NCBI RefSeq assembly: GCF_014931605.1
Contig: NZ_CP053382.1
Coordinates: forward strand, 1,550,001-1,614,000
Direction of reading: 5' to 3'
Origin: Halomonas sp. MCCC 1A13316
GTDB taxonomy: Bacteria > Pseudomonadota > Gammaproteobacteria > Pseudomonadales > Halomonadaceae
DNA: 64,000 nucleotides
Part shown: piece after piece, positions 25,801 to 34,745 of the stretch
How positions within the stretch are numbered: the first letter of the stretch is position 1
Layout: the number at the start of each line of letters is the position of its first letter
Notes under the pieces: model-generated
Databases searched by the model: none
The model's input: only the letters and a program-made list of their open reading frames with translations
Told to the model about the DNA's origin: nothing
Position numbers and translations under genes: made by a program

Positions 25801-25993
25801 GGCAGCGGGACCGAAGGAAGCGTGACTGTGAACGCCGTTTCTACCATGTTCGGGCCTTAAGTCAACCATGAGCCGAGCCGCCCCCGCCAAACATGGACGG
25901 AATGGGAATAGAAACGGCTTCCCATTGCCTTGCGCTGCTGCGGGGCCGAGAATCAGCACGAAGCCGCAAGATACCCTCCCATTGGAAGCAAGA

Positions 25994-28900
25994 GTGAAAG
26001 AATTGGCTTATCAAGTGCATTGTCGTCGCTGCTGGGCGGGCCGACCGGCCTGGCGCCTTCCCGCATGGTTCGTCCTGCTGCTGATGTCGTTGCTCGTCTG
26101 CGGTCGTGTAGTGGCCCAGGACACCCTGCCCGAGCGAGGGGTAGTGGAGGAACGCCTGACCGAACTTCGCCCCGAGGAAGGCGTCAGCGTAACCGAGGCC
26201 GAACAGCGCGATATCGATGCCTTGCAGGCTACGTTGAGCGCCCTCGAGCAGTTGCAAGGGGTGGAGGAGCGGCTCGAGGCTTTGGAGCAGCGGCTCGAGG
26301 AGGCACCTGGCGAACTGCTGCGCCTGGAGCGGGAGTTGCTTCAAGAGGAGGAGGCGGCGCTCGATCGCACGATCGCCGAACTCGATGACGTCCCGCTGGA
26401 GGAACTGGAGTATCGCCAGCAGGAGGCGGTGTTCGAGCTGCAGCAACAGCAGGATCGTCTGGCTGACGTCAACGCCCAACTGCTCTCCGCCCAGACCCTG
26501 CCGGAGCGTGCGCAGCAGGCCATTGCCGAGGCGATGCAGGAAGCCGAGCGTACGCGTCGCGAGCTCGACGCGCTGGAGGGCCAGGGTGTCAGTCAAGATT
26601 CACCGCAGCTGTGGCAGCTCAAGGTCGAGCGGCACCTGGCCGAGCGGACGCTGCGCCTGCGCCAGCGCGAATTGGGCAGCAACACGCGACTGCGCGAATT
26701 GGCGCAGCAACGGCGCGACCTGCTGACCCAGCAGATCGCGCGCCAGGAAGCCGAGCTTTCGCTGCTGCAGAGCGTGATCGACCGCCAGCGCCGCATGGCC
26801 ACGGAACAGGCGATTGCCGATGCCGCGCGTGACGACCCGCTGCTCGAGGCCGGCCATCCTGTGCTGGAGCGTGCCCAGCAGATCAATCGCGATCTCAGCC
26901 TCGAACTGCTGCGGGCCAATGATCGTTACAACGGACTGGTGCGCGAGAGCCTGGCGACTCGCAGCCAGCTCGATCATGTACGCCAGCTCGAGCGTAGCCT
27001 CAACGAGCAGATCGAGGCGATACGCGGCAGCCTGTTGCTGTCACGTATCCTGCGTGAGCAGCGCCGCTCGCTGCCCCAGATCGATGCCAGGCGCAACCTG
27101 CAGGACGAGATTGCCGACCTGCGCCTTCGTCAGTTCGATCTGGTGCGCCAGCGCGATGCCCTGCGCCAGAGCGAACGCCTGGCCAATCAGCGCCTCGAGG
27201 AGGCCGGGATCGAGGTAAGCGAGGCACTGGTGGAATCACTGCAGGGCCTCTATCATTCGCGCCGTCAACTGGTCGATCAGCTCGAGCAGACCTACGGCAG
27301 CCTGCTGAGTGCGGCCATCGAGCTGCAACTCAACCAGCAGCAGCTGCTGGAAACCTCGCGTGAGCTGCGCACCACCATCGACGAGCAGCTGTTCTGGATT
27401 GCCAATACACGACCGCTGGACCTGGCCTGGTTCCGCCACCTCCCCGCTAACCTGAGCACTGAATGGCAGCAGGGCGAGTGGCGTGGAGTGCTGCCGGTGC
27501 ACTGGCGTATCCCCGGGGCAGAAGCATTGGCAGGTGCCCCTCTCCTGCTGGTGGCGGGGTTGTTGCTGGGGCTACGCCGTCGCATACAGCGCCGATTGGC
27601 GATGCTGCACGAGCAGATCGGTCGGTTGCGCAGCGATTCCCAGGCGCATACACCGCTGGCGATTGGCCTCAACGCCCTGCTGGCCTTGCCAGGGCCGCTG
27701 ACCCTGGCCGGCATTGGCGCTTCGCTGAGCAGCATCGAAGCAGGTATTTCGTCGGGCCTGGGCCAGGCTTTTCTGCATCTGGCCCTGGCCTGGGCCTTCA
27801 TCGCCTGGTCGCGACGCTTGCTGGTACGCGACGGAGTGGCAACCAAGCACTTCTACTGGCCATCGGGCTATGTCTCGCGACTGCGCTGGCTGCTCGGCTG
27901 GCTCGGTGTGACACTGATACCCGTATTGCTGATTTCCGCGCTGGCCCGCGATGGCGAAATCAGCTTGACCACGCGTCCCATTGCACTGACGTTGCTGCTG
28001 GCCGGTATGGTGGCCATGAGCGTTCTGCTGGCACGGCTCATCCTTGCCCATACACCATTTTTCGGGGTCAAGCTGTTCCGCCTGATACTGGGTCTGATCA
28101 TGGCCGCCGTACCGCTTGTGCTGGTGGGGCTGATCGTTTCCGGTTTCGAATACACCGCGCTGAGCCTGATCGGCCGCTTCGTCATTACGCTTTACCTGTT
28201 GGCGATGTGGATCCTGGTCGAGGCATCGGTGGTGCGCGGCCTGGCCGTGGCGGCCCGACGTCTGGCATTCAAGCGCGCGTTGACACGGCGTCGTGCCCAG
28301 GCCCAGGAGGGTGCCGAGGGCGGACTCGAAGTGGTCGAGGAGCCGCCGCTGGACATGGAGCAGATCAACCAGCAGTCGCTGCGTCTCTCCAAACTGTTCC
28401 TGCTGATCGGCTTTGTCCTGCTGTTCTACCTGGTGTGGTCCGACCTGCTCACGGTGCTGGGCTATCTGAAGGATGTCGCGATCTGGGATGCGGGAAAGGA
28501 AGGAGGGGGAGAACTCGTCACCAGCGCGCTGTCGGTTGCCGATATCTTTGCCGCAGTGTTGATCTTCGTGCTGACCCTGGTAATGGCGCGCAACCTGCCG
28601 GGCCTGCTCGAGGTCATGGTGCTATCGCGGCTGGAGCTCAAGCAGGGTAGCGCCTACGCCATCTCGACACTGCTTTCCTACACCATCGTAGGCACCGGGC
28701 TGGTAATGGCGCTGGCCACCCTGGGGGTGGCCTGGAGCCAGCTGCAGTGGCTGGTGGCGGCGCTGGGCGTAGGCCTGGGCTTCGGCCTGCAGGAGATCTT
28801 CGCCAACTTCGTCTCGGGCCTGATCATCCTGTTCGAGCGACCGGTGCGTATCGGCGACACCATCACCCTGGGCAACCTCACCGGCACGGTAAGCAAAATT

Positions 28901-29440
28901 CGCATTCGGGCCACCACGGTGACCGACTTCGACCGCAAAGAGATCATCATCCCCAACAAGACCTTTATCACCGACCAACTGATCAACTGGTCGCTGTCGG
29001 ACACCATCACCCGGGTCGTACTCAGCTTCGGTGTCGCTTACGGCTCGGATCAGCGTCTGGTACACCGCTTGCTACGTCATGTTGCCGACGAGAATCCGCG
29101 GGTGCTGGGAGATCCCGAGCCGCAAGTCTTCTTCATGAGTTATGGCGAGAGCACGCTCACCTTCGAACTGCGCATTTTCGTCAACTCGCTGGGTGATCGG
29201 CTCTTTGCCACCGACGAGATCAACTGTCGGGTCGGTGAGTTGTTCGCCGAGTATGGCATCGACATCGCTTTCAACCAGCTCGATGTCTGGCTGCATCGTG
29301 CCGATGACGGGGCAAAAAAGAAGGTGCAGACGCTGACGCCTTCCGACGACTGCGGGGAACTGTTTCCACCGCCCGGAGCGGGCGGCGATCCGGGAGATAT
29401 CGATATCGATAGCGGTGATGGGAGCGATGGCGGACGCTGA
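25994..29440 (+). CDS. mscK: Large mechanosensitive channel, MscK (KefA) type
   Basis: Osmotic-release channel of about 1148 residues, close to E. coli MscK (1120). Order of parts: signal peptide ending near RVVA/QDT, a periplasmic domain of about 480 residues rich in heptad repeats, multiple membrane helices, and the C-terminal MscS pore and beta domain (ALGVGLGFGLQEIFANFVSG, then ERPVRIGDTITLGNLTGTVSKI). I prefer a GTG start at 25994 (GGAAG 5 nt upstream, signal peptide directly after); an ATG at 25868 would add 42 residues without a ribosome site. The C-terminal tail is Asp/Gly-rich. Useful to a halophile facing dilution. Confidence 0.9.
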   Translation: MKELAYQVHCRRCWAGRPAWRLPAWFVLLLMSLLVCGRVVAQDTLPERGVVEERLTELRPEEGVSVTEAEQRDIDALQATLSALEQLQGVEERLEALEQRLEEAPGELLRLERELLQEEEAALDRTIAELDDVPLEELEYRQQEAVFELQQQQDRLADVNAQLLSAQTLPERAQQAIAEAMQEAERTRRELDALEGQGVSQDSPQLWQLKVERHLAERTLRLRQRELGSNTRLRELAQQRRDLLTQQIARQEAELSLLQSVIDRQRRMATEQAIADAARDDPLLEAGHPVLERAQQINRDLSLELLRANDRYNGLVRESLATRSQLDHVRQLERSLNEQIEAIRGSLLLSRILREQRRSLPQIDARRNLQDEIADLRLRQFDLVRQRDALRQSERLANQRLEEAGIEVSEALVESLQGLYHSRRQLVDQLEQTYGSLLSAAIELQLNQQQLLETSRELRTTIDEQLFWIANTRPLDLAWFRHLPANLSTEWQQGEWRGVLPVHWRIPGAEALAGAPLLLVAGLLLGLRRRIQRRLAMLHEQIGRLRSDSQAHTPLAIGLNALLALPGPLTLAGIGASLSSIEAGISSGLGQAFLHLALAWAFIAWSRRLLVRDGVATKHFYWPSGYVSRLRWLLGWLGVTLIPVLLISALARDGEISLTTRPIALTLLLAGMVAMSVLLARLILAHTPFFGVKLFRLILGLIMAAVPLVLVGLIVSGFEYTALSLIGRFVITLYLLAMWILVEASVVRGLAVAARRLAFKRALTRRRAQAQEGAEGGLEVVEEPPLDMEQINQQSLRLSKLFLLIGFVLLFYLVWSDLLTVLGYLKDVAIWDAGKEGGGELVTSALSVADIFAAVLIFVLTLVMARNLPGLLEVMVLSRLELKQGSAYAISTLLSYTIVGTGLVMALATLGVAWSQLQWLVAALGVGLGFGLQEIFANFVSGLIILFERPVRIGDTITLGNLTGTVSKIRIRATTVTDFDRKEIIIPNKTFITDQLINWSLSDTITRVVLSFGVAYGSDQRLVHRLLRHVADENPRVLGDPEPQVFFMSYGESTLTFELRIFVNSLGDRLFATDEINCRVGELFAEYGIDIAFNQLDVWLHRADDGAKKKVQTLTPSDDCGELFPPPGAGGDPGDIDIDSGDGSDGGR

Positions 29441-29447
29441 TCGGCCG

Positions 29448-30212
29448 CTAATGCTTCACGGCGTGCAGCAGGAACTCCCGATTGCCATCGCCTCCGGTGA
29501 TCGGGCTTTCCTGCCAGTGGCAGATTGCCAGGCCCAGTTCGGCGCAGCAGGCGCGGATGTTGTCTTGCACTTCTGCGTAGCGCATCGGGTCGGCCACGAT
29601 GCCGCGTGAGTTGACGCCACCCGGCCCTACCTCGAACTGTGGCTTGACCAGGCTCAGCAGCTCGCCGCCGGGCCGTAGCAGGGCGGAGATTTGCGGCAGG
29701 ATCAGGGTCTGCGAGATGAACGAGACGTCCATCACCGCGATGTCGGGCGCTTCGACCGCCTGGGCTGCCAGCGCCTCATGCAGGCGAGGCTCGGTGGCCA
29801 TGGCCCGGGCGTTGAGCCCCTCCAGGCAGGTGACGCGGGGATCGCCGCGCAGTTCGGCGTCGAGCTGCCCATGTCCCACCTCGACGCCGACCACGTGGCG
29901 AGCGCCGAAGGCCAGGGCGCAGTCTGTGAAGCCGCCGGTGGACTGCCCCACGTCGAGTACCAGTTTTCCCTTCAGATCGAGCCCTAGCACCTCGATCAGT
30001 GCCTCGAGTTTCAATCCTGCCCGCGAGACATAGCGCTCCTCTGGGTCTTCGGTCACAGTGAGGCGGCAGTCCTCGGCCAGTTTTTCGCTCGGTTTGTCGA
30101 GCACCCGACCACTGCTGGCCACGCTGACCCGGCCATGACGAATCAGCCGCTGGGCGCGCGTGCGCGAACGGGCCAGGCCCTGGAAAACGAGCAGTTGATC
30201 AAGGCGGGGCAT
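29448..30212 (-). CDS. tlyA: TlyA-family rRNA (2'-O) methyltransferase
   Basis: 254 residues. An N-terminal S4 RNA-binding domain (RLDQLLVFQGLARSRTRAQRLIRHGRVSVA) is followed by an FtsJ-like methyltransferase fold: SAM site LVLDVGQSTGGFTDCALAFGA and DIAVMDVSFISQTLILP, ending with GNREFLLHAVK. TlyA proteins methylate cytidines in ribosomal RNA; the older name haemolysin is misleading. GGAG lies 8 nt before the ATG. It converges with the mscK gene, 7 nt apart. Confidence 0.92.
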   Translation of the reverse strand: MPRLDQLLVFQGLARSRTRAQRLIRHGRVSVASSGRVLDKPSEKLAEDCRLTVTEDPEERYVSRAGLKLEALIEVLGLDLKGKLVLDVGQSTGGFTDCALAFGARHVVGVEVGHGQLDAELRGDPRVTCLEGLNARAMATEPRLHEALAAQAVEAPDIAVMDVSFISQTLILPQISALLRPGGELLSLVKPQFEVGPGGVNSRGIVADPMRYAEVQDNIRACCAELGLAICHWQESPITGGDGNREFLLHAVKH

Positions 30213-30291
30213 GGCATGACTCCGGCAGCCAGAAGCGGGTTGGCCATTATGGCATAATCGTTTAGTTAGCCAGTTAACAGAAGGGGGCCGC

Positions 30292-31323
30292 GTGGGTCGA
30301 GACATGGGCAGGGCGTTGGCCAGGTCGCTGGCCTTCGGTGCCATGGGTGGGCTGGTCTTCCAGTTAATCGGGATGCCGTTGGCATGGATGCTGGGCCCGT
30401 TGACGGCCAACCTGATCGTCTCGGCGTCGGGGGGCGACGTGCGAATACCCGAGCCATTGCGTGAAGTCTTCCTCGGCGTTCTCGGCCTGGTGCTGGGCAG
30501 CCAGGTGACGCCGCAGCTAGCCGAGCGGGTGCTCGACTGGCCGCTTTCCGCCATGCTGCTGCTGCTTGGCGTGGCCGTCTCGACGACGGCAGCGGCGGCT
30601 TGGTATCGACGTTGCGGCTTCGACTCGGTGAGCGCCTGGTTCGCCTCGGCGCCCGGTGCCATGACGGCCATGATCCTAATGGGCGAAAAGTGCGGTGGCG
30701 ACCCGCGGCGAATCGCCGTGGCCCAGTCGCTACGCGTCGTGCTGGTGATCATGATCCTGCCGCCGCTGTTCTGGTTCTACGAGGGCGCGAGCGGTGACGA
30801 GGTGGCTGCCGCCGTGGACCGTGAACTCTCCTCACCCTGGCTGCTGCTGGTCCTGCCGTTGCTCTTGCCGCTAGGGCGTCGCTTGCGGCTTCCCACTCCA
30901 TCGCTGCTTACCCCGCTGCTCTTTGCCGGCGTGCTCTCCGGTTTCGGCATCGCCAGCCTGAGCCTGCCGGATTGGGGCATGAACCTGATGCTGTGGGTGC
31001 TCGGCTGCGCCATAGGCTCGCGCTTCCGTGGGCTCTCCTCGGCGCGGCTATGGCGCTATCTCGGCGAGGCCTTCGTCGCCACCCTGCTGGCGCTGGCGGT
31101 GTTGGCAGGCTTTGCCGAATTGATCCATCGCCTGGTGGGCGTGCCACGGGACATTGCCCTGCTGGCACTGGCTCCTGGCGGCATCGGCGAAATGGCCATA
31201 CTGGCGGTGGCGCTGGATCTCGACCCCGTCTTCGTCGCTTTCCACCACCTGCTGCGCATGGTGGCACTGATGTTGTTCGCCCCTTTCTGGGCGCGCTGGA
31301 TGTTAGGGCGCCTCGATCAGTAG
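30292..31323 (+). CDS. AbrB-family membrane protein
   Basis: 343-residue membrane protein with about ten hydrophobic segments. The duplicated AbrB-family units (MGLVFQLIGMPLAWMLGPLTANLIVS-like near residues 15-45 and GVPRDIALLALAPGGIGEMAILAVALDLDPVFVAFHHLLRMVAL near 280-325, quoted here as regions) mark the family once mis-named ammonia monooxygenase or AbrB duplication. Probably a transporter of unknown substrate. The GTG at 30292 is preceded by AAGGGGG; an ATG 12 nt later is an alternative. Its end overlaps the converging downstream gene by 7 nt. Confidence 0.85.
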   Translation: MGRDMGRALARSLAFGAMGGLVFQLIGMPLAWMLGPLTANLIVSASGGDVRIPEPLREVFLGVLGLVLGSQVTPQLAERVLDWPLSAMLLLLGVAVSTTAAAAWYRRCGFDSVSAWFASAPGAMTAMILMGEKCGGDPRRIAVAQSLRVVLVIMILPPLFWFYEGASGDEVAAAVDRELSSPWLLLVLPLLLPLGRRLRLPTPSLLTPLLFAGVLSGFGIASLSLPDWGMNLMLWVLGCAIGSRFRGLSSARLWRYLGEAFVATLLALAVLAGFAELIHRLVGVPRDIALLALAPGGIGEMAILAVALDLDPVFVAFHHLLRMVALMLFAPFWARWMLGRLDQ

Positions 31324-33368
31324 TCCTGCGGACGGGGGCCTGCATTGGCCTGCAATTCTGAGTCTGGTAACCGGTCGGCCCCCCAACTGCGATGAATATA
31401 CTGCGTCACCCGGTCGAGCTCCTCCTGGCTGATCCGGGCCAGTTCGCCACGTTCCAGCGGATCGTAATGGAAAATGTAGAGACGTGAGACGAACTGCTCG
31501 AAGGGCAGGGACGCCTCGCCGAAGCGCTCGGCGTTCCCGGCGGTGCTGACACGCACGCCATCGCCCCAGTCCTGGCCGCTGTCGTTGTTGGGGTTGAAGA
31601 AGTACACCCGCATCACATCTGACGGGTCCAGCGATACCCGCAAAATGGTGATGGCGTGCCAGCCGATGAAGCGCGCCGCGCTGTCGGTGACGGCAATCCC
31701 GGCCGGCTGCGGGTGTATGAGGGGTTGGTTGCTGTTGTAGTAGGGGTGGTAACTGGCATAAAAATGGCGCAGGAAGTCATCCAACTCGTGCAGCTGTCCT
31801 GTAGCGACATCGACATTGATGCGAAAGCCCCGGCCCGACCACCAGCCGTGGAACTCTGGATTCACCCATCGATGCGGATCGCCTTCTCGGCCGATGCAGC
31901 GCCGACCCATCTCTGCATATATGCGGTCCAGGTGTGGCACAACGATCAGCGACACAGGGTCGAGATCCATGGGCAGACTATCGGCAACGCCGGAGAGGCT
32001 GGCCATGGATGAGAGCGGCATACCCTCGAAGTGCATGATGATGTCATCGTCGCGTGCCGCCCAGGCCACCATCTGCAGCAGATAGTCCGGGTCATTGTAG
32101 GCCCACATGGAGAGCGCCCGCGCCGACTGGCAGGTCGGGTTGTTGCCCTGGCCCACTCCCAGCGGCAACCCGAGCATGCACAGCACGCCTTCCAGCAGGC
32201 GCGCCCGTGGCGAAACGGCGTCGCCGAAGGCCAGGGTCAAGCGCTGCTGCGACCATTCCGAAAGCGACAGTCCCAGTTGTCGCCACATGGCGGGGGCCAC
32301 GGGAGGCTGATAGAGAATGCCGCGCTCCAGCATCAGGGCCAGGCCGTAGGCCGCCTGGGGCGTGGCGGGATGCACCGCACTACGAATCAGGGCGTGGGCA
32401 AGCTCTCGGTAGCAGAGCAGACAATCACGCCCGGTCGACGAGAGCCCCAGCGCCTCGGACAGCAGATGGTCACCGTGGTCCAACAGGTGGCGCAGCAGTA
32501 CCGGGTGATAGGGCGATACCAGTCCGGTATCGTGCATGGCACGCGCGAAGCCGGTAGCCTCGCCCTGCAGGGCACTGTTGTCCATGCTCGACAGGCGTTC
32601 ACGATAGATCTCGATGCCGGGATCCTCGCGGCTGGCCCGGGTAGGGCCGAACAGTGAGCTGACCAGGCGGTCGGCTCCCTGTCCGCTGGCGCCCAAGTCG
32701 ATATCGGGATCGGCCTGGCAGATGGCAATTTGAGTGATCATCTGCTTGACGCTTTCCACCTGGATCGGGCGCTGCTGGAGGATGCGCCAGATCTCCTCGA
32801 TCAACTTGTCGATGATGTGCTCGTAGCCGATGCGCTCGGCCAGGTGGCGAAACAGATGACGGGGGATCTGCGCCAGTCTCCCCTGGGTTTCCCGCTCGGC
32901 CTCGCTGGGCGCGCTGAACAGCAGCCATAGGTTGAGCGCCATCACCTGGGTCAGGTAATGGTGGGCCTGCTCGGCGGATATCTGGGTATGCGGATAGTCG
33001 CCCTTGGCCACGGCGAGAAGACGCAACTCGCTCAATGCCTCGATCACCACGGTATTAGGGTCGGCACTTTTCAGCGCATGGGTGGTCAGGCCGGGCAATA
33101 GGTACTGCGGCGTCGCCCAGTCCGTGCCGAGAAATACGCCCGCTCGCTCGAGGGACCTGGCGCGGGTTTCCAGAGCAGCGGCGCCGCCGGGCTGAAACAG
33201 CACCCGGCGCGCCGTGTCCAGTACGCGGGGAAGCTTGCCCGGCTTGGCGAAGTCACGCGCCTCGCCGAGCAGGGCAGTCGCTTCGTCGAGATGCACCAGC
33301 AGACCCTGGAGCTTGTCGTCACTCGTCGGGGACTGGCCGTTATCCTGCGTGTCTCGGTTGGTGCCCAC
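31317..33368 (-). CDS. Unrecognised 683-aa protein with papain-like Cys/His/Asn arrangement
   Basis: I do not recognise a named family. No signal peptide or membrane helix is seen, so it should be cytoplasmic. Residues 1-400 are mainly helical. Residues 400-640 carry C413 in GVGQGNNPTCQSARALSMW, with Q407 exactly six residues before it as the oxyanion glutamine of papain-like enzymes, then H571 in RFIGWHAITILRV and N592 in YFFNPNND. This suggests a papain or transglutaminase fold. It starts with GTG behind a strong AAAGGAG, 44 nt after the ATP-grasp gene, so the two form an operon. It could process, release or transfer a peptide made by the ATP-grasp enzyme. Catalysis is inferred only. Confidence 0.85.
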   Translation of the reverse strand: MGTNRDTQDNGQSPTSDDKLQGLLVHLDEATALLGEARDFAKPGKLPRVLDTARRVLFQPGGAAALETRARSLERAGVFLGTDWATPQYLLPGLTTHALKSADPNTVVIEALSELRLLAVAKGDYPHTQISAEQAHHYLTQVMALNLWLLFSAPSEAERETQGRLAQIPRHLFRHLAERIGYEHIIDKLIEEIWRILQQRPIQVESVKQMITQIAICQADPDIDLGASGQGADRLVSSLFGPTRASREDPGIEIYRERLSSMDNSALQGEATGFARAMHDTGLVSPYHPVLLRHLLDHGDHLLSEALGLSSTGRDCLLCYRELAHALIRSAVHPATPQAAYGLALMLERGILYQPPVAPAMWRQLGLSLSEWSQQRLTLAFGDAVSPRARLLEGVLCMLGLPLGVGQGNNPTCQSARALSMWAYNDPDYLLQMVAWAARDDDIIMHFEGMPLSSMASLSGVADSLPMDLDPVSLIVVPHLDRIYAEMGRRCIGREGDPHRWVNPEFHGWWSGRGFRINVDVATGQLHELDDFLRHFYASYHPYYNSNQPLIHPQPAGIAVTDSAARFIGWHAITILRVSLDPSDVMRVYFFNPNNDSGQDWGDGVRVSTAGNAERFGEASLPFEQFVSRLYIFHYDPLERGELARISQEELDRVTQYIHRSWGADRLPDSELQANAGPRPQDY

Positions 33369-33412
33369 GCCGACTCCTTTCTGATCAATCTGTCGTGTCC
33401 ATGACGCCTTGT

Positions 33413-34636
33413 TCAGACATAGAAATCAAGCTCTTCCTGATGCTTGAGCATATCCCGCAGTCGATGCGGGTCATCGCCCTTGAAGTAGATCAGTCCCCAG
33501 TGGGTGCCGAAGGCGGTGCGTTTGGTCACGGTTTCTTCCATGGGGGGCGTGAGTTCGTGCGACTCGAAGTACGGGTCGTCTTCGACCTCCTCGGGGATCT
33601 CCAGCCGACTCACCACGCGACGACGCGGATAGACACCGAAACAGCCCGCATAGCACTTGGCATCCTCCACCTCTTTGGGGAAGAAGGCCTTGACCTCATC
33701 CGACGTGGTCTTGGGGTCGAACACCAGCATGCTGGCCTGGTAGGCATTGAATCCGTACACGCGTTCGAGCAGTTCGAACACCTTGAAGCCCGGCGGGCGG
33801 TAGGCGACCTCGCCGAAGTACATCTCGCCGTCGCTCGTGACGAAGTATTCGGGGTGGATCAACCCGAACTCGATATCGAACGTCTTGACCAGCTTCTCGA
33901 TCTGGGCGGTGATCTGCGGTCGGTATTGCTCGAGCTCCGGCGAGGCGGGCACGAACACCGAATAGCCCAGAGTGACGTACTCCGAGATATTGAGGAAGGC
34001 GATCTTGCCGTTGTGGATCCAGGCCTCGACGGCAAACTCCCACCCGTCCAGGTGCGACTCCATCAGCACCGGGAACTCCTCGTCGGGGATGGTATCGACC
34101 TCGTCCGGGGTGCGAATCACCCGGTGTCCCAGGCAGCCGGCCTTGTCGAAGGCTTTGAGGTGAATGGGGTCGTTGGGGTCACCGTCGAGCTTGAGCAGGG
34201 TCTGGTTGACGCGCTTGAGAAAGCGGATCACGTCGCCTTTGTCATGCGCTTCCTCGAAAATGCCCACGCGGATCCCACCTAACTGGGCACGCCGCTTCAT
34301 CAGCGCCTTGTCGCGCAGCAGCAGCGACTGGCCGTAAAGGCGAGGGTTGTCGAGCAGTACCGAGTTGATGGCGCCTGCCCATTCAACGGTTTCCTCGAAC
34401 AGGGGGATGGCAACGTCGACGCCCATATCCTTGAGCCTTTCTGCAATATCCAGCGAGCTGTCATTGAGTCGCTCGAAGTGCCAAGAGACGTAGGGGATTT
34501 CATGCTTCTCGCAGTACTCCTTGGCCCAGTCGGGTGCCACAACAACATAGCGGCGGTCGAAATTCTCGGCGGCCTCGATGGCGTTCAGGCTCCAGCCGAG
34601 CAGTGCGATATAGCCCTTGTCGGGATTCTTTTCCAT
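33413..34636 (-). CDS. ATP-grasp domain carbon-nitrogen ligase
   Basis: 407 residues with the ATP-grasp hallmarks in order: nucleotide lysine K161 in HLKAFDKAGCLG, hinge region LMESHLDGWEFAVEAW (191-206), and the metal and phosphate site HPEYFV...GEVAYRPPG with E276 and R280. The N-terminal 100 residues form a Rossmann-like pre-domain (GYIALLGWSLNAIEAAENF, VDVAIPLFEETVEW). Enzymes of this class activate a carboxylate as acyl-phosphate and join it to an amine or thiol; the substrates here are unknown. GAGGAG precedes the ATG. It is the first gene of an operon with the papain-like protein. Confidence 0.85.
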   Translation of the reverse strand: MEKNPDKGYIALLGWSLNAIEAAENFDRRYVVVAPDWAKEYCEKHEIPYVSWHFERLNDSSLDIAERLKDMGVDVAIPLFEETVEWAGAINSVLLDNPRLYGQSLLLRDKALMKRRAQLGGIRVGIFEEAHDKGDVIRFLKRVNQTLLKLDGDPNDPIHLKAFDKAGCLGHRVIRTPDEVDTIPDEEFPVLMESHLDGWEFAVEAWIHNGKIAFLNISEYVTLGYSVFVPASPELEQYRPQITAQIEKLVKTFDIEFGLIHPEYFVTSDGEMYFGEVAYRPPGFKVFELLERVYGFNAYQASMLVFDPKTTSDEVKAFFPKEVEDAKCYAGCFGVYPRRRVVSRLEIPEEVEDDPYFESHELTPPMEETVTKRTAFGTHWGLIYFKGDDPHRLRDMLKHQEELDFYV

Positions 34637-34745
34637 GGGGCATCTCCTCAGGTGCAGTGTCTTACTCCTCGTGTTCCCTTGCTCTTTCTACCCTAGCTGA
34701 TTTGAGGTGACCCTCACAGGGCGGGAGCTGTCCGAGTCGCGATCC

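Follow-up and report, generated by a model that had tools for sequence, protein, structure and literature searches.

Glutathionylspermidine synthetase/amidase is a single fused protein whose ligase and papain-like CHAP amidase portions act on one amide. Predicted amidoligase gene neighbourhoods, in which ATP-grasp ligases are linked to peptidases, were reportedly described by Iyer and colleagues in 2009. Here we analysed a 64,000-nt stretch of the genome of Halomonas sp. MCCC 1A13316 (hereafter the window) that contains two neighbouring genes, encoding a predicted ATP-grasp carboxylate-amine ligase (AG) and a papain-like protein (CP). The design of this pair, a ligase with a papain-like amidase, resembles that of glutathionylspermidine synthetase/amidase, but AG and CP are two separate open reading frames (ORFs) without a Pfam CHAP match. 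With the neighbourhoods of 2009, the pair shares the ligase-peptidase theme and differs in that CP belongs to no Pfam family. PMC10318531 cites that study. Our results indicate that AG and CP constitute a conserved two-gene enzyme system, and we consider it possible, though short of probable, that they act as one system, found among named relatives mostly in salt-adapted bacteria, on a small amide of the ectoine/diamine pathway.

The first-pass annotation had reported two minus-strand ORFs 44 nt apart, each preceded by a ribosome site, and this is confirmed; the Shine-Dalgarno-like motifs are GAGGAG for AG and AAAGGAG for CP (Table 1). AG and CP (each by protein search) and the pair (by DNA search) are single-copy in the source genome, a 4.49 Mb assembly of one contig. 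Since AG and CP each have homologues in several named genera, most of them salt-adapted, the gene pair is not a chance arrangement. Co-occurrence was assessed in three genome samples (145 genomes of the order, 274 of the class and 61 of one family; draws, not full surveys), and protein searches covered the best 120 of 2631, 1447 and 1981 matches. Of the 145 genomes, 17 contained CP, and exactly these 17 also contained AG (identity ≥75%); four further matches to the AG query (23-33% identity) are distant ATP-grasp proteins. AG and CP likewise shared the same 8 of the 274 genomes, where 11 others had only distant AG matches (at most 37%), and both full-length genes shared the same 33 of the 61, where one genome (G423) had CP fragments alone and no AG, and another (G426) one further, distant AG-query match (32%). 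Neither an intact AG without CP nor an intact CP without AG was found in any of the three samples, which argues that the two genes form a real two-gene system, as the first reading of the locus had supposed.

Strict adjacency, which that reading had proposed as a check on the pair, does not hold. Although AG lies directly upstream of CP in 72 of 80 named CP loci (one cut by a contig end), in the other eight it is absent from that position or a decayed remnant, and all eight genomes carry an AG of ~78% identity elsewhere. Intact CP genes in three of these loci (L059, L069 and L070, from two Halomonas and one Vreelandella) are preceded by decayed C-terminal AG remnants, while a second AG lies elsewhere in each genome, so that the partner copy has been replaced. 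Of the 156 distinct CP sites, 115 had AG within 3 kb, in four arrangements (101 tandem AG-CP, 7 tandem CP-AG, 6 divergent and 1 convergent), indicating linkage beyond a single inherited operon, and the remaining 41 had no AG within 3 kb (3 of them with a short flank). Copy numbers vary as well: G300 carries five full-length CP genes, one CP fragment and two AG genes, and other genomes (for example, G351, G355 and G368) carry one CP with two AG. We therefore rejected a fixed conserved operon and regard AG together with CP, at variable copy number, as the unit. Homologues lacking the ligase gene, which the first reading had named as a refutation, were seen only as a loss of adjacency and not at genome level in the three samples. 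Together, these data show that AG and CP are a co-dependent pair of conserved proteins that, judged from their sequences, look catalytically intact.

Residue conservation was counted over distinct sequences from the fetched loci, the window's own included, using matches of at least 350 (AG) or 550 (CP) aligned residues. The full ATP-grasp motif set ascribed to AG (K161, E276 and R280) lies where the first-pass annotation placed it, and all three residues are invariant (Table 1); K161 would be the ATP-grasp lysine and E276 is a predicted metal ligand. The window AG matches the Pfam ATP-grasp_4 profile weakly (24.9 bits, under the curated cut-off of 27), this profile matches 28 of 28 aligned AG relatives at E ≤1e-3, and PF13535 is present in the precomputed annotation of most AG homologues among the best 120 listed. 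The predicted AG structure had a predicted local distance difference test score (pLDDT) of 52.5. Among PDB sequences, the nearest to AG belong to two L-amino acid ligases (BL00235, PDB 3vot; PDB 4wd3) and a phosphoribosylglycinamide synthetase (PDB 4dim), at 20-23 bits. The L-amino acid ligases have an ATP-grasp core, as is predicted for AG, and are 413-425 aa long, compared with 407 aa, but the similarity extends over ~120-165 residues, and AG is set apart by its co-occurrence with a papain-like protein. Apart from one 51-residue remnant, AG matches in the three genome samples were either full-length with at least 75% identity or at most 37% identical. AG is a candidate for a very conserved ATP-grasp subfamily, and its family and motifs suggest ATP-dependent formation of an amide from a carboxylate and an amine.

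CP had been described as unrecognised by sequence, and scans against Pfam and NCBIfam indeed matched no family at E 1. The papain-like order of residues noted earlier, Q407-x5-C413 followed by H571 and N592, proved correct in position, and all four residues are kept in 156 of 156 distinct CP sequences from the fetched loci. A second set, which overlaps the first in part, comprised 324 CP sequences drawn from top matches and fetched loci, so that distant homologues are under-sampled; it retained Q, C and H in 324/324 and N in 323/324 (one D). The catalytic domain holds 47 of the 53 invariant columns of a 99-sequence alignment. In the predicted CP model (pLDDT 93, predicted template modelling score 0.88), C413 opens a helix, as in papain-like enzymes. 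A fold search with this model listed 50 matches, of which the 24 that reach residue 635-647 are all papain-like cysteine enzymes, and the match to such enzymes over the catalytic domain (residues 374-637) is of moderate strength; Foldseek without VIA-align returned no significant PDB match for the model. Matches of the helical domain to importin/armadillo-type helical proteins are weak and could reflect a common arrangement. The residues of the papain-like set are thus conserved in CP, and a papain-like fold is moderately supported. CP shares the Gln-Cys-His-Asn order and the Cys at a helix start with clan CA cysteine peptidases, among which the calpain protease core is closest by fold, but it has no detectable sequence similarity to them, carries its own helical N-terminal domain and is tied to a ligase gene. 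These features are consistent with CP being a cysteine enzyme that combines a helical domain with a papain-like catalytic one, and make it a candidate new papain-like family that probably hydrolyses or transfers an amide bond.

Table 1. Features of the AG-CP locus, in window coordinates
Feature	Position	Strand	Basis or detail
AG, ATP-grasp carboxylate-amine ligase ORF	33413..34636	-	407 aa, ATG start
CP, papain-like protein ORF	31317..33368	-	683 aa, GTG start
Shine-Dalgarno-like GAGGAG ahead of AG	34644..34649	-	sequence reading
Shine-Dalgarno-like AAAGGAG ahead of CP	33374..33380	-	sequence reading
AG K161, ATP-grasp lysine	34154..34156	-	invariant, 131/131 distinct sequences
AG E276, predicted metal ligand	33809..33811	-	invariant, 131/131 distinct sequences
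AG R280	33797..33799	-	invariant, 131/131 distinct sequences
CP all-helical domain, residues 16-373	32250..33323	-	secondary structure of predicted model
CP papain-like catalytic domain, residues 374-640	31449..32249	-	fold matches and invariant columns
CP Q407, predicted oxyanion-hole residue	32148..32150	-	conservation
CP C413, predicted nucleophile, starts helix 413-425	32130..32132	-	conservation and model
CP H571, within strand 567-580	31656..31658	-	conservation and model
CP N592, just past strand 586-591	31593..31595	-	conservation and model

The genomic context of the pair suggests a link to ectoine metabolism. Ectoine synthase (EctC, PF06339), called above the family cut-off, was present in 65 of the 145 genomes and 39 of the 274, and these include all 17 and all 8 pair-bearing genomes, that is, all 24 distinct pair-bearing genomes of the two samples. 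This nesting is significant by genome (hypergeometric p 3e-7 and 9e-8, respectively) and by family (p 0.0025 and 3e-6), the latter being a rough treatment of kinship from partial listings, with family totals hand-counted and partly assumed from numbering, and the total family number assumed. In 4 of the 24 genomes (G260, G283, G344 and G355), EctC also lies no more than 2 kb from AG or CP, where ~0.1 such cases would be expected (a rough figure, assuming 0.4% per genome), and it does so in one further genome, G280. The five neighbourhoods have five different gene orders: EctC-AG-CP in G344, which has a second EctC near EctA; AG-CP-EctC in G283 (75% complete) and CP-deacetylase-AG-EctC in G260, each with EctA on another contig; EctC-GNAT-deacetylase followed by a CP-less AG copy in opposite orientation in G355, with EctA 150 kb away; and a CP-less AG copy facing EctC in G280, which also has ectABC. 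Published accounts of solitary ectoine synthases, encoded away from ectAB, call their role unresolved (PMC5924519 and PMC6344544). The EctC genes described here are likewise apart from ectAB, but some adjoin AG, CP or a deacetylase-like gene, which provides a testable set of partners, and in G260, G283 and G355 the EctC concerned is the only one found, though EctA is present. Among the publications listed, none names the AG-CP pair in its title or the opening of its abstract, and no paper in the library searched combines 'ectoine synthase' with 'ATP-grasp' or 'carboxylate-amine ligase' with 'Halomonas'.

The second recurrent neighbour is a deacetylase-like amidohydrolase. Where flanks were fetched, a gene for a Hist_deacetyl protein lies no farther than 3.3 kb from AG or CP in G181, G260, G321, G338, G355 and G469, alongside a GNAT gene in G355 and G469. 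Relative to the G355 protein, identity is 67-77% in G181, G321, G338 and G469 and 50% in G260, and in the PDB, HDAC6, HDAH, HDAC10 and acetylpolyamine amidohydrolase are among its relatives. Separately, eight named Halomonas loci (L021, L030, L031, L032, L037, L049, L078 and L080) contain a distant histone-deacetylase-like gene (36-40% identity over ~200 residues) ~1.8-3.8 kb upstream of AG.

We favour an ectoine- or diamine-related compound because EctC and the deacetylase-like amidohydrolase recur beside AG or CP and because, in two samples, the pair occurs only in EctC genomes. In the proposed mechanism, AG would form an amide and CP would act on such a bond in a compound of the same type, most likely a small N-acyl or aminoacyl metabolite belonging to the ectoine or diamine pathways. 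The association with EctC is statistical; from it we infer the substrate. A peptide or amide synthesis-and-processing pair, as the first-pass annotation had it, is supported in part, by the union of an ATP-grasp-type ligase with a protein bearing the papain-like residue set, by conserved sites and by gene linkage, and of the two products it left open, a small metabolite is favoured over a protein target, since EctC acts on an N-acyl diamine (PMC6344544) and the deacetylase-like neighbour comes from an amide-hydrolysing family. These neighbours favour small-molecule amide chemistry without proving it.

Several observations weigh against the ectoine reading. EctA is never missing (35/35 genomes), which led us to reject AG as an EctA replacement, and the window's own genome keeps ectABC ~0.65 Mb from the pair. 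Most EctC genomes of the 145- and 274-genome samples lack AG-CP, the flanks fetched for the 80 named CP loci, which are mostly of Halomonas type, contain no EctC, and two of the five EctC neighbours adjoin an AG copy without CP. Halophily could also be the cause of the nesting. Should the ectoine link hold, partner genes would be identified for some of the ectoine synthases encoded outside ectABC, and a step would appear to be missing from the present picture of how a main protectant is handled by salt-loving bacteria. A bolder and rather doubtful extension is that AG, CP, the deacetylase-like amidohydrolase and a recruited EctC make up an undescribed ectoine/diamine amide branch, in which AG would make an aminoacyl amide, EctC would cyclise it or compete for it, CP and the deacetylase would release it, and some EctC proteins outside ectABC would serve this branch.

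Protein modification, in which AG would attach a short tag or a single amino acid to a protein, CP would remove or transfer it, and the helical domain would recognise the protein, is unlikely. RimK and RimB, or a ligase and its deconjugase, provide the comparison. The helical domain of ~360 residues, the sharing of one or two AG by several CP paralogues (as in G300) and the strong conservation of AG (at least 75% identity in every true relative sampled), which a large interface would explain, would all fit. However, no recurring target gene was recognised beside the pair, and EctC and the deacetylase-like neighbours point to small amides, though relatives of histone deacetylases act on proteins too.

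Conjugation of an amino acid or peptide to a polyamine by AG, with CP as the amidase of the conjugate, as in glutathionylspermidine synthetase/amidase, appears improbable. In three loci of one genus (L131, L135 and L210), an extra CP lies directly 3' of an ATP-binding cassette (ABC) transporter permease gene that is PotI-like by reading, and the HDAH, HDAC10 and acetylpolyamine amidohydrolase relatives of the deacetylase-like neighbours would suit polyamine chemistry, although HDAC6 and others are relatives as well. The permease link is confined to that genus, and the sequence matches of AG included no glutathionylspermidine synthetase.

It is also quite improbable that AG and CP are a real ligase/amidase pair with an unrelated function (such as making a peptide metabolite) whose nesting within EctC genomes reflects salt adaptation only. 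The mostly salt-adapted genera of the named relatives, the many EctC genomes without the pair and the lack of EctC near the 80 named loci speak for this account; against it, EctC stands beside AG or CP in five genomes with differing gene orders, four of them among the 24 genomes for which the rough estimate gives ~0.1 such cases. A defence or toxin function, prompted by the UniRef name 'Zorya protein ZorC EH domain-containing' of two CP homologues (P0063 and P0129), is very improbable and was rejected, since PADLOC models matched neither three CP proteins nor AG at E 1, Pfam matched no EH domain in these homologues or the window CP (so that the label was reproduced by neither resource), no relative was confirmed in viral contigs, and plasmids, searched with AG only, yielded a single 'plasmid' record of 1.8 Mb; absence from those collections is not proof.

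Extra CP copies have other recurrent neighbours. In one family sample, four loci (L129, L132, L200 and L208) encode a GCS2-like ligase and an AstE/AspA-like protein within ~5 kb of such copies; because the fatty-acid desaturase, GCS2, AstE/AspA-like and MBL neighbours recur in that sample only, we did not use them as evidence. Ectoine genes also occur in other settings. In four loci of one genus (L214-L217), ectC is ~60-90 kb from ectA and beside an MFS-type transporter gene, sometimes with a GTPase-like gene, and the window's own genome has a second EctA-like gene above the family cut-off (G000:C1:3219794-3220261, in L227), away from ectABC and adjoining amidase-like genes (names in both cases read from sequence). 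Beyond CP, the window encodes, between 25868 and 31323 (25868-29440, 29448-30752 and 30292-31323), a large mechanosensitive channel of MscS type, a TlyA-like S4/FtsJ methyltransferase and an AbrB-family membrane protein; the AbrB-family gene (30292-31323) is convergent with CP, and the two 3' ends share 7 bases. A TlyA-like methyltransferase, read from sequence, is directly 3' of CP in eight named loci inspected, possibly through synteny alone.
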